Source: Planoprotostelium fungivorum
Lineage: Eukaryota > Evosea > Variosea > Cavosteliida > Cavosteliaceae
DNA: 56,142 nucleotides
NCBI GenBank assembly: GCA_003024175.1
Contig: MDYQ01000182.1
Coordinates: forward strand, 1-56,142
Direction of reading: 5' to 3'
Part shown: positions 725 through 43,545 of the stretch, one piece after another
Position numbering within the stretch: the first letter of the stretch is position 1
Layout: every line of letters starts with the position of its first letter
Made by a program: the position numbers and the translations under genes
Notes under the pieces: model-generated
Databases searched by the model: none
The model's input: the letters and a program-made list of their open reading frames with translations, nothing else
What the model was told of the DNA's origin: nothing

Positions 725-795
725 GGCTCCTTGGCCAAGTGGTAAGGCGCTAGTCTCGTAAACTAGAGATCGCGAGTTCGATCCTCGCAGGAGCC
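725..795 (+). tRNA. tRNA-Thr (anticodon CGT)
   Basis: 71 nt with a full cloverleaf. The acceptor stem GGCTCCT pairs with AGGAGCC, the anticodon stem CTAGT/ACTAG closes the loop CTCGTAA (anticodon CGT, reading ACG), and the T stem GCGAG/CTCGC encloses TTCGATC. No intron and no encoded CCA. An identical copy lies at 8178-8248 on the other strand. Confidence 0.95.
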
Positions 796-889
796 TTCTT
801 TTACTTCTCATCACCCTGCATTTTCCATCGACACCACCTTTTCACACAGAGGACAACCACATATCGGTAGAGATCATAGTTTATTTCAA

Positions 890-8016: not shown

Positions 8017-8177
8017 AGTAACCACATCAGGATGTTCGATAAAGTCTCTCTTTTTGTATTCCGTCTCAGTTTCTATCGCGATGAATCCGACGATGATGCA
8101 GACCACAAACAACTTTGTCAGCAAGGGCCCGAAAAAAACACAGAAACTCCTGATAAATAAAACGATGGGAAAAAGAA

Positions 8178-8248
8178 GGCTCCTGCGAGGATCGAACTCG
8201 CGATCTCTAGTTTACGAGACTAGCGCCTTACCACTTGGCCAAGGAGCC
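8178..8248 (-). tRNA. tRNA-Thr (anticodon CGT), second identical copy
   Basis: The reverse complement is identical over all 71 nt to the tRNA at 725-795, with the same stems and the CTCGTAA anticodon loop. It lies 186 nt downstream of the first CudA/RHR-like gene, in the same direction. Flanking sequence is not conserved between the copies beyond a few bases (CCGG before the gene, CTTCTTTT after it). Confidence 0.95.
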
Positions 8249-21029: not shown

Positions 21030-22166
21030 ATCGTATATTAAGAGGTGTCGTCGTCTCAGTCTCTCTCTTCGCGATGTAACAAAATCCCTGCTTTCTTGCA
21101 AGAAATGCGGTGAAACTATGCAGGTGGCATCTATAGTGGGCCTATACGGGGTAAGCTTTATATATTATGTCTATCTGGTTGCATGCCGACAGGCCTCTTC
21201 TCCATCACGATGACTCCGATTCTAACTTTCGATTCTATTTGACTATTGAACTGAACGACCCAGTCTTCTGACGAGGCATGCTCCAAGCCAAAGGACATCC
21301 TGAAATCACAATCAACATCCCCATTTCTCAACCCATCGTCCTCCCTTCACCCACCTCTCTTCCATGTATGTGACACAGTCGCTAAGTCCTGCAACAGATC
21401 ATCTATTTCCTGCATGAGCTGACGATCAGCGGTCCTCCTGAACAAGAACCACTCGTCTAACAGAGGTACCGGCGGTGGACCTCGCATGTGTCTCCGACGC
21501 ATCACGTTGTGAGATGATGTGAAGAATACAGAAGTGAAGACTTTCTTGTCGTGACGTTGACGGACCGCAAGCGGGTGGAGAACCTCAGGGTCGGGCTATT
21601 TCGATTTGTGCCCGCTATCGGCCGAAGAAATGACTTTTGCGCCTTTCATTTCTTATATGAACGAATGCAGACGTGATCGCATGAAGTTTTTGGGGTGATC
21701 AGCGGCGTCCAAGTGTCCTCTCATAGAAATCACCACACGATATCCATTCACTGCATGATATCGTGCGGCCCATGCGAATATTTACCTTTCTTTTTCACTC
21801 GGTACGATAACGCAAAATCACCATGGATACTCGTCTTCTTAACGCGCTTTTTTAAAAAGGTAAATAATCGCTTGGGCCGCACAATACAAGGTGGAAGATT
21901 GTCTGATCAGTTCTCCGATATACATCCCAGTGGATTACCCTTCGAGCAGCTCGTCGAGGAACATCACAGGAATTCCGCTCCCATTCTCCATGGATGATCG
22001 ATGTCTACATTTCATAGTTCGTCGTTGCCCTATCGGATACCTCTATCCATCGCTGTTGCCTGGCAGCTCCTCCACCTCACCGTGGAGTAGTTGTCATGTG
22101 ATTGGATGAACGAGAAGAGCTAAAACGGTTCATTTGTGCGTGTGCGGACGAGGGTATGTTAAAACT
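21030..22166. other. Intergenic stretch with an inverted repeat and weak coding-like remnants
   Basis: 1.1 kb without a confident gene. From about 21200 the plus strand reads HHDDSDSNFRFYLTIELNDP and, after a stop, KGHPEITINIPISQPIVLPS, which looks like decayed coding sequence. An imperfect hairpin is listed separately at 21763-21882. The rest holds only short random frames. Confidence 0.4.
21763..21882. repeat. 27-bp inverted repeat with 66-nt loop
   Basis: The left arm at 21763-21789 begins GTGCGGCCCATGCG and ends ATTTACCTTT. The right arm at 21856-21882 is its reverse complement at 25 of 27 positions. The loop is 66 nt and has no repeat structure of its own. It could be a small MITE-like element or the template of a hairpin RNA. 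Confidence 0.75.
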
Positions 22167-22237
22167 GGCCCCTGCGAGGATCGAACTCGCGATCCCCAGT
22201 TTACAAGACTGGTGCCTTGCCGCTTGGCCAAGGAGCC
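22167..22237 (-). tRNA. tRNA-Thr (anticodon TGT)
   Basis: 71 nt on the minus strand. Acceptor GGCTCCT/AGGGGCC (one U-G wobble), anticodon stem CCAGT/ACTGG with loop CTTGTAA (anticodon TGT), and the same T arm as the CGT isoacceptors. It is clearly a diverged sister of the two tRNA-Thr(CGT) genes in this window. Confidence 0.95.
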
Positions 22238-22466: not shown

Positions 22467-23214
<748 letters not shown>

Positions 23215-39567: not shown

Positions 39568-41886
39568 TTATTGTGCTCCGTGTCTGCGAAGTAGCTCGGC
39601 CACCTCTTGAAAACCCTGTCCGAGTCAGACGACGTTCGATGGAGCTGTTCACCTTGGCCATGGCCAGTTGGAGGGGAGTGCCACCGGATGATGTGATGTT
39701 GACTTGAGCACCGCGAGAGATAAGGAACTCGATGGATTCCTTCTGGTTGTGGAAGGCTGCGTAGTGGAGGGGGCTCTCCTTCGAACCGTTCACGGCGTTC
39801 ACGGGGGCTCCCGCCTCGACTAGACTGCGGACGATGCCGGTCGATGTGCACGCCGCAAAGTGAAGTGCTGAGGCGAAGTCAGCGATAGGTCAAATGGATG
39901 AGATGGTGTTGGGAGTGATGAGATGTAGAATGTGATGACCTGTTCTTCCTCTGGCATCACGAGCGGTAGAGAGAGCACCGTGACGGAGGAGCATATCAGT
40001 CATCTCTTGGTATCCCTTCTGGGCCGAAATGATCAATGGCGTACTTCCAAACGGCTGTGACCATGAGAAATAAATCAATTGTAGCCTCACCTCGTTGTCA
40101 TGAACGTTTGCACCCGCTTGGATGAGATATTCTGAGATCAATGAGAGAGGAGTGAAGGGATGAGGTACCTGCAGAGGGGAGGTGGTTGTTGTATACGGCG
40201 AGCATGAGGGAAGTCATTCCTTCCGTGTTCCTCTCCCACAGGTTGACTTTCTGCTCTTCGATCAAGAGACGGATCAAGTCGATGTGTCCGAAGAAGCTTG
40301 CCGTGTGGATTGGTGACTCGTGGTTACCAATCTATCTGTGGTCATTCTTTCTCCTTTTCATTTGGATATGAGCGACGAGATGATGTGATATGATGATGAG
40401 ATGAGATGATAGGATGAGATGATGAGATGAGATGATGAGATGAGATGATAGGATGAGATGATGAGATGAGATGATAGGATGAGATGAGATGATGAGATGA
40501 GATGATAGGATGAGATGATGAGATGAGATGATAGGATGAGATGATGAGATGATGATATAAGATGTAATAAACAGGAGATAAACACCTTTGTCTCGGGATG
40601 AGCACCATTCGATAGCAACCAACGGACGATCTCAGGACGGTTGATGGCTATGGCTCTATGTAGTGCTCCGCGGTTGACGTTCGCGCCTCTCTGTACAGCT
40701 GCCCTCACTCTCTCCAAATCTCCTGCCACAACAGCCACATCCAAATCATTATCGGCTACCTCCATCAACTTCACCCACAAATGTCACTCACGTGATCTGC
40801 CCTGCATGTTCTGATTCTGCACCAACTGAGGGACACCCAAATTTACTGCCAAGTTGGCAGGGAGCTGTGTGGGTGAGGACGAAATTTCTGTGGAATCTCA
40901 CAGGCATTCCTGGATGTCTGGGTGGCTGTCCTTGACCTGCGTTGGGATTCCCATTGGGTTGCAGGTGGATGGTCTGCGGCACGGCACCTTGTTGCTGAAC
41001 TCCTTCAGCGAAGGGTTGACCCACCGATTCATCTCACCTGGATCTGAATGTGCATCATTCCTGGAGGGGCAAACATGGGCTGGCCTTGAGCATTGGCTTG
41101 TGGTTGACCTTGAGCATTGGCTTGTGGTTGACCTTGAGCATTGGCTTGTGGTTGACCCTGCACATTAGCTTGAGGTGCCTGAGGGTTCGCTTGACCCGGT
41201 TGCGGAGGCTGCTGCGTTTAGTCGACGATTGAAGGAGTGATGCACCTGTCCCGGGATACCGATGATGGAAGTCAGCAGTTGTTGGAATACACCAGGTAGT
41301 TGTTGTGGATTGAGACCCTGCATCGATCAGAGGTGATGCTCGATGACTTGTACGCACGGGTGGAACACCGTCTGCTGGTTGAGGTGCTGCCTGTGGTTGA
41401 CCGGGAACTGTCTGTGGTTGGCCTTGAGGAACGGGGACACCATTGACCTTTCGATCGTCAGTGGATCGAATAGTAGAGTGGAAGAGACCATGCGAACAAA
41501 GTCTTGTGGATTCAATACGAATCGAAATCCTTGTTGTTGACCGGGGTGTGCGTTTTGACCCTCGGCTGGCTGAGTTGGAGGTTGAACGGGGGTATCAGGA
41601 ACTGGTGCCGGGCGGTTTGCTACGAGATGAAGAACACTGGCATCTTTGATGCCTGCATGCATGAGATGGAAATGATATTCAGATTCTCACCGTAGCTCTC
41701 GAGAGTGTTTTGGTCTTGCAATACTTTGCCCATGAATATGAGCTTCTGTCCCTCCACGGGAAGACCGCTGCTCTCCACCAACATCTGCTTCAAGTCTCGC
41801 ACCAGAAGAGTGCGCTGCACTACAAACTCAGCGGTAGTTCCACCAAGCTTCTTGATCTTGATACTGATTGCTGTTTCATCTGCCAT
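39568..41886 (-). CDS. Ubiquitin-like domain plus ankyrin-repeat protein
   Basis: Start ATG 41886: MADETAISIKIKKLGG, LVRDLKQMLVESSGLPVEGQ, KLIFMGKVLQDQNTLESYG is a ubiquitin-like fold, then VLHLVANRPAP as in BAG6/ubiquilin-type proteins. A Gln/Pro-rich spacer with three 8-residue repeats (QGQPQANA) follows. The C-terminal half has about six ankyrin repeats (VNRGALHRAIAINRPEIVRW, GHIDLIRLLIEEQKVN, GSTPLIISAQKGYQEMTDML, ALHFAACTSTGIVRSLVEAG, SPLHYAAFHNQKESIEFLIS), ending VAELLRRHGAQ; the last intron is placed to give this ending. The stop TAA lies inside AATAAA. Likely a protein-quality-control or ubiquitin-pathway adaptor, by architecture. Confidence 0.85.
40332..40585 (-). repeat. Minisatellite inside an intron of the UBL-ankyrin gene
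   Basis: A 254-nt intron, by far longer than its neighbours, filled by units of about 26 nt on the plus strand (GATGAGATGATGAG + ATGAGATGATAG, with length variants). On the sense strand it is a C/T-rich array. It produces spurious open frames of Ser, His and Ile. Confidence 0.85.
41085..41156 (-). repeat. Three tandem 24-bp coding repeats (QGQPQANA)
   Basis: Three nearly identical 24-bp units (TTGAGCATTGGCTTGTGGTTG + ACC on the plus strand) within the Gln-rich spacer of the UBL-ankyrin gene. They stay in frame and are flanked by degenerate copies. Confidence 0.85.
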
Positions 41887-42187
41887 CGTTGTGTTGACGC
41901 GTAAAGAAATAAATGGGCTGGTGTCCGTAGAAATGACCGTATCTACAATGGACCACTCCAATTTGGGCGATCGTCTCAAGCAAGGAATGGTTCTCGCCCA
42001 GAGAGAAGCGATGTCATATCCAACCTTGCTATTAATAATAGTCCTTGGTCGTCACACTTTGAAAATTCAAGACAGATATCGACCGTGTGGCTATTCAGAG
42101 TGACTGTCCTGGCATATGGATCCCAGCGGCTGCACTGTGTGACACGGGAGTCCATGTTGAGGATAGGAAGAATGTACAGTGGATGTT
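41887..42187. other. Intergenic stretch between the UBL-ankyrin and F-box/Rab genes
   Basis: 301 nt between two minus-strand genes; must hold the UBL-ankyrin promoter. Nothing else recognised. Confidence 0.4.
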
Positions 42188-43545
42188 TTATTCGTATCGA
42201 TGAGCCCTCTGCTCCTCCTCCGCTTTGGCCCTCTCGCACAACTTCCTTCCAACGGCCGAGAACAGTTCGACAACATTGTGTCCCGTCTTGGCGCTGCACT
42301 CCATCCACAGACTCCCCTTGTCGGCTGCAAGGTTCTGCGCCAGCTCCTTCTTGACCTCTCATCGTGTCAGTCTCTCTCCCCTCCCTCTCCTCACCTCTCT
42401 TCCCTTGCTCTCGATCAGATCTGATTTGTTTCCCACAATGATGATGACGGGGGGGTCTCCTCTCTGGGCCTGCAGTTCGTCGACCCACTTCTGCACCTTC
42501 TCAAAGGAATCCTGTGAGGGTGAGAGGCAGAAGGAGGGGATGGAATCACGTGATTGGTGACGTCATAGACGACGACGGCGGCGAGGGCACCGCGGTAGTA
42601 CATGGGGGCCAGAGAGTGAAATCGTTCACTTCCCGCCGTGTCCCAAATTTGAAATTTGACTGGAACATCATCCACCACGATCTGTTGGACCAAGAAGGAA
42701 GCCCTGAGACTCTCAGTCTACATCGATATCTCGATATAGTGCGAAGAATGATGATAGAGACAATAGAATGTGAAGAATGACAGGAGATGTAGTAGAGGAT
42801 GATGTGAGAGGGGACAGTGAAGAATTACCCAATGGTGGCCTCGTGATACGGACTGAAAGTTCCTCTGCAGAAGCGAAGAACCAAGGAAGATTTTCCCGCC
42901 GAGCTGTCACCCAGCATGACCAACTTGGCACCCTCGTGTAACTTTTGTGTGGGTGACATTTGTTCGTACTGCTGAGAAGCCAGTTTAACCGCTGAAAGGT
43001 TCAGTTCGATTCGTGTGAAAGAACTCACTGGCTTGTGCTAGATCTTTGTTTCCAACACCAACGCAGCACTTGCGTTGGGTTTGTGGATTCAAGAGGAGTG
43101 CTTTCGTCGTCTTTCCAGTCACTTCTGTTTGGTACCAAAACTTGTAACTCGTATTCTTTGCAGAATTGAGGTAGATCATCCCACATTTCGCCTCGTATAG
43201 GGGCTTCCTGAGCTGGATAAATTTCGATGCGGGAAAAAATCCTCTTACCATATTTTGTTGTCCTCTGATAACCTCTTTAAGCGGTGATTAACTGTCTAAG
43301 ATTGAGGAATGACTTTCTACATTTACTGACCTCTCACAGTCCTACACAAGTCCAGAGGAGTCAAAAATGAAAGAATACGAAGAATAAGGTCGTCTTGTAG
43401 GTTACTCCACACATCAGTTCCAGGAAGGGGAATCTCGCTCAACGTTGGGGCCCTTCTAAGAGATTCTTGTGGACGAGAAGGTCTGTCAGAGTCAGATTCC
43501 TTCAGGAAATGAATCCACTCACTCTCCGGATGGAACATTGCCCAT
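42188..43545 (-). CDS. Predicted F-box / Rab5-like GTPase fusion protein
   Basis: Eight exons in compatible phases (starts 43545, 43482, 43291, 43207, 42991, 42703, 42511, 42355; last base 42188) give 332 aa. Residues 1-60 hold [15 protein letters not shown] and an F-box ([35 protein letters not shown]). Residues 60-140 are an unknown domain ([33 protein letters not shown]). From residue 144 a Rab5-type G domain follows: [68 protein letters not shown]. The catalytic Gln of DTAGQE is Ser, and the C-terminus ([10 protein letters not shown]) lacks cysteines, so it cannot be prenylated. The MGxxxS start would fit N-myristoylation instead (inference). Alternatively two genes overlap, but the gap from a free F-box stop to the Rab ATG would be only about 25 nt. 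Confidence 0.75.

Follow-up and report, generated by a model that had tools for sequence, protein, structure and literature searches.

F-box proteins use a second domain to bring substrates to the Skp1-Cul1 ligase. The FBXW, FBXL and FBXO receptors of SCF ligases carry their F-box at the N-terminus, as does the protein family described here, but have WD40 or LRR repeats where this family has a Rab5-like G domain. Small GTPases joined to a ubiquitin-ligase part are known, TRIM23 among them, and some lineage-specific ARF-family proteins are described as having BTB or F-box domains (PMC8358228, available portion); these share the combination of parts with the present family but are ARF rather than Rab proteins. 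Rab5 proteins with a changed membrane anchor are also on record. According to the available sections of PMC3912013, PfRab5B is a Rab5 with N-myristoylation instead of prenylation, and both ARA6/RABF1 and Plasmodium Rab5B resemble the present family in being Rab5-derived, lacking a C-terminal lipid motif and having an N-terminal Gly, but no F-box is mentioned for them there. In its GTP form, ARA6 titrates a shared effector from canonical RAB5 in plants and, unlike the family, keeps the catalytic Gln, as reflected in the Q93L mutant used (PMC5947987, available sections). Rab24 lacks the catalytic Gln, as the family does, and is described as having little or no GTPase activity and as residing largely in the GTP-bound state (PMC12385749, available sections), whereas the family is closest to Rab5 PDB chains and groups with Rab5 rows in a tree made without Rab24.

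Here, a locus of Planoprotostelium fungivorum, a variosean amoebozoan of the order Cavosteliida, was analyzed within a stretch of 56,142 nucleotides, hereafter the window. A first-pass annotation had read this locus as an F-box domain fused to a Rab5-like GTPase, an order for which it knew of no described family. That statement held in the open-licence PubMed Central full texts, as far as their text was available, in which no F-box/Rab fusion family was found; the available text of the Rab and Amorphea papers PMC13191114 and PMC3192815 gave no term match, and that of PMC5869587 contains neither "F-box" nor "fused". It needs qualification in that F-box domains in ARF-family proteins are in print (PMC8358228, available portion). 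A small GTPase with a ubiquitin-ligase part and a Rab5 with a changed anchor are both known kinds.

Gene structure of the F-box/Rab5-like fusion

The coding region is read from the minus strand of the window (Table 1). As the first-pass annotation had claimed, eight exons join into one frame of 332 aa, separated by seven introns of 40, 39, 41, 37, 125, 38 and 39 nt, all of which are GT..AG and have compatible phases. The role assigned to the 37-nt intron at 43028-42992 also stood, in that without its removal the F-box frame stops at 42985, and the Rab frame offers its next Met at 42959. A scan of the window for short GT..AG distances gave a weak bump only, at 38-49 nt. The 332-aa product exceeds the Pfam cut-offs for F-box (29.9 bits, cut-off 20.5), F-box-like (29.4 bits, cut-off 24.3) and Ras (178.8 bits), with the F-box at residues 33-74 and Ras at residues 155-316, and the two other features first noted, DTAGSE and the missing C-terminal Cys, were both confirmed in the sequence. 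Upstream of the ATG there is an in-frame stop at five codons. An alternative start at 43538 with intron 1 retained (MFHPESEW..., 343 aa) also leaves an open frame; this start is disfavoured and MGNVPS is preferred, because the transcript of a relative, P0002, starts with MGNLPS and aligns with MGNVPS. The anatomy of an F-box plus Rab5-like fusion is near certain.

Table 1 Features of the fusion gene in the window
Feature	Position	Strand	Evidence
Whole coding region, ATG to stop, 332 aa, 8 exons (43545-43523, 43482-43331, 43291-43249, 43207-43029, 42991-42829, 42703-42550, 42511-42395, 42355-42188)	42188..43545	-	Splice model; P0001 (NCBI) with identical ends
Exon 1, start MGNVPSGE, N-myristoylation-like MGxxxS	43523..43545	-	Splice model; MGNLPS in transcript P0002; pattern test
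Intron 1, 40 nt, GT..AG	43483..43522	-	Splice model; MGN start of P0002
F-box, residues 33-74, two introns within	43204..43409	-	Pfam PF00646 29.9 bits, PF12937 29.4 bits
Exon 3, 15 residues, second F-box half, read otherwise by NCBI model	43249..43291	-	Splice model; comparison with P0002
Exon 4, post-F-box stretch and linker	43029..43207	-	Matching stretch in P0002 model helical, then disordered
Linker Cys pair (CC)	43063..43068	-	CC, CxC or CxxC in 11/12 rows tested
37-nt intron joining F-box part and Rab part in frame	42992..43028	-	Splice model; continuity in relatives
Rab5-like G domain, residues 155-316, three introns inside	42239..42926	-	Pfam Ras 178.8 bits; Rab5 chains best in PDB
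Codon for Ser212 of DTAGSE, replacing catalytic Gln	42628..42630	-	Sequence
C-terminal tail past G domain, ends RYE, without Cys	42188..42238	-	Sequence

The public record of P. fungivorum, P0001, is a 340-aa "Rab5/RabF-family small GTPase" with the same start and end as the 332-aa model. It reads exon 3 and its surroundings (window 43330-43208) differently, is 8 residues longer, and has an F-box of 17.8 bits, below the Pfam cut-off. The 332-aa model aligns without gaps to P0002 in the exon 3 stretch (RVCKKLNYLSETNEIW). Judged by this alignment, the F-box stretch of P0001 is mis-spliced, and in practice a domain search on the public record therefore fails to reveal the fusion.

Elsewhere in the window, the next gene downstream lies on the same strand at 41620-41890 (-), begins MADETAISIKIKKLGGTTAEF... 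and has a ubiquitin-like N-terminus by eye. Three tRNA genes were found with Rfam, at 725-796 (+), 8177-8248 (-) and 22166-22237 (-).

Relatives of the fusion protein

A protein search with residues 1-165 of the product gave three proteins among 118 candidates. A profile search based on the window protein, P0002 and P0003 scored 8000 candidates, and the best 120 of 5335 matches were examined, below which more distant fused proteins could rank. Among these 120, 13 rows make up the family: P0001, P0002, P0003, P0005 to P0012, P0015 and P0092, the last assigned on its sequence. An F-box over the Pfam cut-off is present in seven of the 12 relatives (P0002, P0005, P0006, P0007, P0008, P0009 and P0011), and the junction is read through in every one of these seven. 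P0002 and P0011 are EukProt Trinity transcripts, each with both domains in one ORF; P0002, of 343 aa, starts with MGNLPS, has F-box and Ras over the cut-offs, carries DTAGSE and ends RYE with no C-terminal Cys. Both sides of the 37-nt intron are continuous in P0002, P0003 and other relatives, with P0003 joining the linker to the Rab part there, and the post-F-box stretch is alignable among the F-box-bearing members. When residues 1-155 of P0002 served as the search query, only P0002 itself was returned. The single-gene fusion, for which a search for the same domain order had been suggested, is thus matched in seven proteins from other organisms or samples, including two EukProt transcripts, each of which encodes the F-box and the G domain in a single ORF, and these read-through relatives rule against a reading as separate genes.

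The ORFs of the other five relatives (P0003, P0010, P0012, P0015 and P0092) have no Pfam F-box. Those of P0003, P0010 and P0015 start at Met residues within the post-F-box part, that of P0012 opens at roughly this point with MGR, and the sequence of P0092, without a Met, starts inside the G domain. From these starting points, we take the five as probably 5'-incomplete, F-box losses being possible instead. Orthologues with F-box and Rab in separate genes, which had been named as evidence against a fusion, were not proven among the 12 relatives, although these five lack an F-box in their ORFs. The fusion is common to an amoeba and to some organisms known from transcript and metagenome data, and is no artefact.

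Of the 39 G domains placed in a tree, 12 are family rows (the window and 11 others; P0092 and P0001 were left out), and these make up a single clade supported at 100/99. The clade lies with Rab5 rows on the same side of the midpoint root; deeper in this tree several branches are weakly supported, and it contains long branches. A scan of viral contigs returned a single locus, L028, whose Rab-like domains are of a different type and do not point to the family. L028 is an 11,795-base contig in a viral collection and carries three consecutive Rab-like stretches, of which one resembles Rab1 by eye; the contig has a eukaryotic look and is perhaps not viral.

The G domain is Rab5-like without the catalytic Gln and the prenylation Cys

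The best PDB sequence matches are Rab5A/B/C chains for both the G domain of the window and that of the more distant P0007. For the AlphaFold model of P0002, Foldseek ranks 1-20 are all Rab5 structures, with 55-57% identity. The same genome contains two free Rab5 genes with DTAGQE, and the G domain of the fusion, while closest to Rab5, lacks both the Gln of this motif and the C-terminal prenylation Cys. Among the best 120 of 5335 matches, the position of the catalytic Gln is occupied by Ser in 12 and by Ala in one of the 13 family rows, versus Gln in all of the 107 others, and a Cys in the last five residues occurs in 0/13 family rows versus 102/107 other rows. The altered switch II and the absent prenylation site, first noted for the window, therefore hold throughout the 13 rows.

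Other elements of the domain are retained: NKxD is kept in all 13 family rows, SAK in 12 with SAR in P0002, and neither the Gly nor the Lys of the P-loop varies across the alignment of 12 family rows. From switch I to switch II, the family is 60-75% identical to nine Rab5 rows, compared with 47-57% for three other Rab rows; over the rest of the domain, the values are 45-56% and 41-46%, respectively. By these identities, the switch face of the family is nearer to Rab5 than are the faces of the other Rabs compared. Higher identity at the face than elsewhere does not set the family apart, because Rab5 rows among themselves (91 vs 74) and the Rab1-like row from the P. fungivorum genome (57 vs 41) show it as well, and the F-W-Y triad was uninformative, being identical in all 24 rows compared. 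Judging from these residues, the domain has probably retained nucleotide binding and an effector face like that of Rab5, and GTP hydrolysis is probably crippled.

N-terminus and linker

A start of the form MG[NQ]xxS fits an N-myristoylation pattern. It is found at the start of four of the eight F-box-bearing members (window, P0002, P0007 and P0011). In P0005 and P0006 the start reads MWGN, and MGQAAS comes at residue 24, in the column that aligns with the pattern of the others; P0009 begins MWGN and P0008 MQTK, neither with a myristoylation pattern as called. The first-pass claim of an N-myristoylation pattern thus stood for the window; three relatives share the pattern at their start, P0008 and P0009 lack it, and P0005 and P0006 have it only at an internal position. 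The MWGN start is shared by P0005, P0006 and P0009, and the in-frame MGQAAS of P0005 and P0006 coincides with the start of other members; these proteins may have two start sites or isoforms. Among the 107 other rows of the best 120 of 5335, 15 begin MG, five fit the looser pattern and two the stricter one. A match to N-myristoyltransferase is present in the P. fungivorum genome. N-myristoylation in the family is probable, though not universal.

Like ARA6 and PfRab5B, the window protein combines a Gly2 myristoylation pattern with the lack of a prenyl Cys; P0005, P0006, P0008 and P0009 as called do not. The palmitoylation feature of the ARA6/PfRab5B type is absent, MGNVPS having no Cys beside Gly2; there is a Cys pair in the linker instead. 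In 11 of the 12 rows tested, such a pair (CC, CxC or CxxC) stands ahead of the G domain, where it could serve as a further acylation site.

In the AlphaFold model of P0002 (mean pLDDT 80.8, pTM 0.74), the F-box half and the greater part of the G domain are predicted with high confidence. By sequence, the F-box half of P0002 is matched best in the PDB by FBXW7 (E 0.00097) and FBXL5 (E 0.0063). The middle of the protein, previously left as unknown, resolves in part in this model, which is not of the P. fungivorum protein: helices follow the F-box, and then comes a low-confidence linker in which the Cys pair is unstructured and residues 112-126 score under 50.

Further F-box and Ras genes in the same genome

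Second fusions were sought by pairing F-box and Ras matches by eye and by applying our own F-box profile to 67 Ras-family loci and two window stretches; the Ras loci came from 150 scored of 315 candidates, about 30 further listed Ras loci lying outside the scan. At C134:132017-133355 (+) (L029), six exons give a protein of 316 aa with an F-box at 60-100 (44.8 bits) and Ras at 130-291 (167.5 bits), DTAGPE at switch II and a CaaX-like end, CTLM. Given this end, a changed anchor is no general rule of such fusions. A Met directly follows the F-box/Ras junction of C134, so that a two-gene reading is possible there. At C66, about 192742-191440 (-) (L030), an F-box of 42.8 bits is followed over three introns, in phase, by a P-loop-like stretch below the Pfam cut-offs and, further on, by a Ras stretch of 43.4 bits with NTSGVEE replacing DTAGQEE; this model is partial at its 5' end and between the P-loop and switch II. 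The C66 product may be unable to bind nucleotide, as the Asp of DTAG is lost too (NTSG). The joins of both C134 and C66 rest on splice phase. Two other candidates were rejected as fusions: at C316 the Ras frame ends before the F-box is reached, and at C23 about 3.6 kb separate the F-box from the Ras locus. Within the window, a Ras-family domain was also observed at 22521-23093 (-), in two Pfam stretches (profile 19-63 and 102-160) with an open frame of 228 aa.

None of the three fused GTPases found in this genome keeps the Gln, which is replaced by Ser, Pro and Val (0/3 Gln), versus Gln in 26 of 27 readable unfused loci, the sole exception being a Thr (DTAGTEQ). The difference gives a Fisher p of 0.001, or 0.007 without C66, the motif of which was read by eye after being missed by the switch II pattern. 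That pattern was readable in 27 of 65 unfused loci, and two chance matches outside the domain (L029, L105) were dropped.

Discussion

The only second domain recognized in the fusion protein by Pfam or in the P0002 model is the G domain, and Pfam detects no classical substrate domain. We consider it about an even chance that the protein would be an SCF substrate receptor with a GTP-locked, Rab5-derived G domain as its bait, a mechanism that we infer from the domains and their altered residues. The F-box would bind Skp1, for which the P. fungivorum genome has a match, and enter the Cul1 ligase. The G domain would bind GTP and hydrolyse it very slowly, and would therefore remain effector-binding without cycling. 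The protein would be held at the membrane by N-myristoylation in place of a prenyl tail, to which acylation at the paired linker Cys might contribute. Rab5 effectors or Rab5 regulators would then dock on a permanent "Rab5-GTP" face and be ubiquitylated at that membrane, Rab effectors being the presumed substrates, and the F-box would in this way turn an ARA6-like titration of an effector into its removal. We know of no F-box protein with a G-domain receptor that has been shown to act in this manner. With Skp1 and N-myristoyltransferase matches in the genome, the Rab-linked SCF ligase suggested in the first-pass annotation seems a reasonable reading.

The C134 and C66 genes would follow the same design, aimed at the effectors of other GTPases. 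Extended in this way, the proposal would be of a P. fungivorum design covering at least Rab5-like and Ras-like GTPases, in which a GTP-locked or dead G domain with an F-box forms an SCF decoy receptor that marks the effectors of the free counterpart for ubiquitylation; we put it forward tentatively, with less than even confidence.

Several other readings were weighed. The G domain could be an address rather than a bait, placing the SCF ligase on endosomes while the linker or other partners choose the substrates. The Rab5-like switch face and the lipid-type starts are consistent with such a role, as is a post-F-box stretch that can be aligned in the F-box-bearing members, but the linker of the P0002 model is short, is predicted with low confidence (residues 112-126 below 50) and therefore leaves little room for a separate substrate-binding fold, and we regard an address function as rather unlikely. 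It is also conceivable, if distinctly unlikely, that the F-box serves self-control, with autoubiquitylation limiting the level of a hydrolysis-deficient Rab5 that could not otherwise be switched off. The Gln is lost in three fused GTPases of the genome and in 13/13 family rows, and GAP-driven switch-off is therefore probably lost as well; the sequence, however, bears no sign of turnover, and to our knowledge GTP-locked Rabs such as Rab24 exist without an F-box.

Some yeast F-box trafficking proteins are reported to bind Skp1 in a non-SCF complex, and the F-box of the fusion could likewise bind Skp1 in a trafficking complex with no ubiquitin transfer. Its modest score, though over the cut-off (29.9 bits), and the lack of a classical substrate domain by Pfam would suit this explanation, against which stands the Skp1 match in the genome; we hold it to be improbable. 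That the gene is an annotation artefact of two adjacent genes, of which one encodes the F-box and stops at 42985 while the other encodes the Rab and opens at 42959, has an almost negligible probability. Each frame is open by itself, and the ORFs of five of the 12 relatives lack an F-box. Yet P0002, P0005, P0006, P0007, P0008, P0009 and P0011 cross the junction in one ORF, P0003 joins linker and Rab over the same intron site, and about 25 nt between the genes would leave no space for a promoter, so that two genes could be maintained only if P. fungivorum were unlike its seven read-through relatives.

Fusion, loss of the Gln and loss of the prenyl tail co-occur in the family, and the order of these steps could therefore be traced in more transcriptomes. 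If the SCF receptor with a GTP-locked bait proposed here is true, a small-GTPase domain would be the substrate-recognition part of a ubiquitin ligase, and the proteins would be natural decoys that hit only the partners of the active GTPase form, tying Rab5 endosome identity directly to protein turnover.
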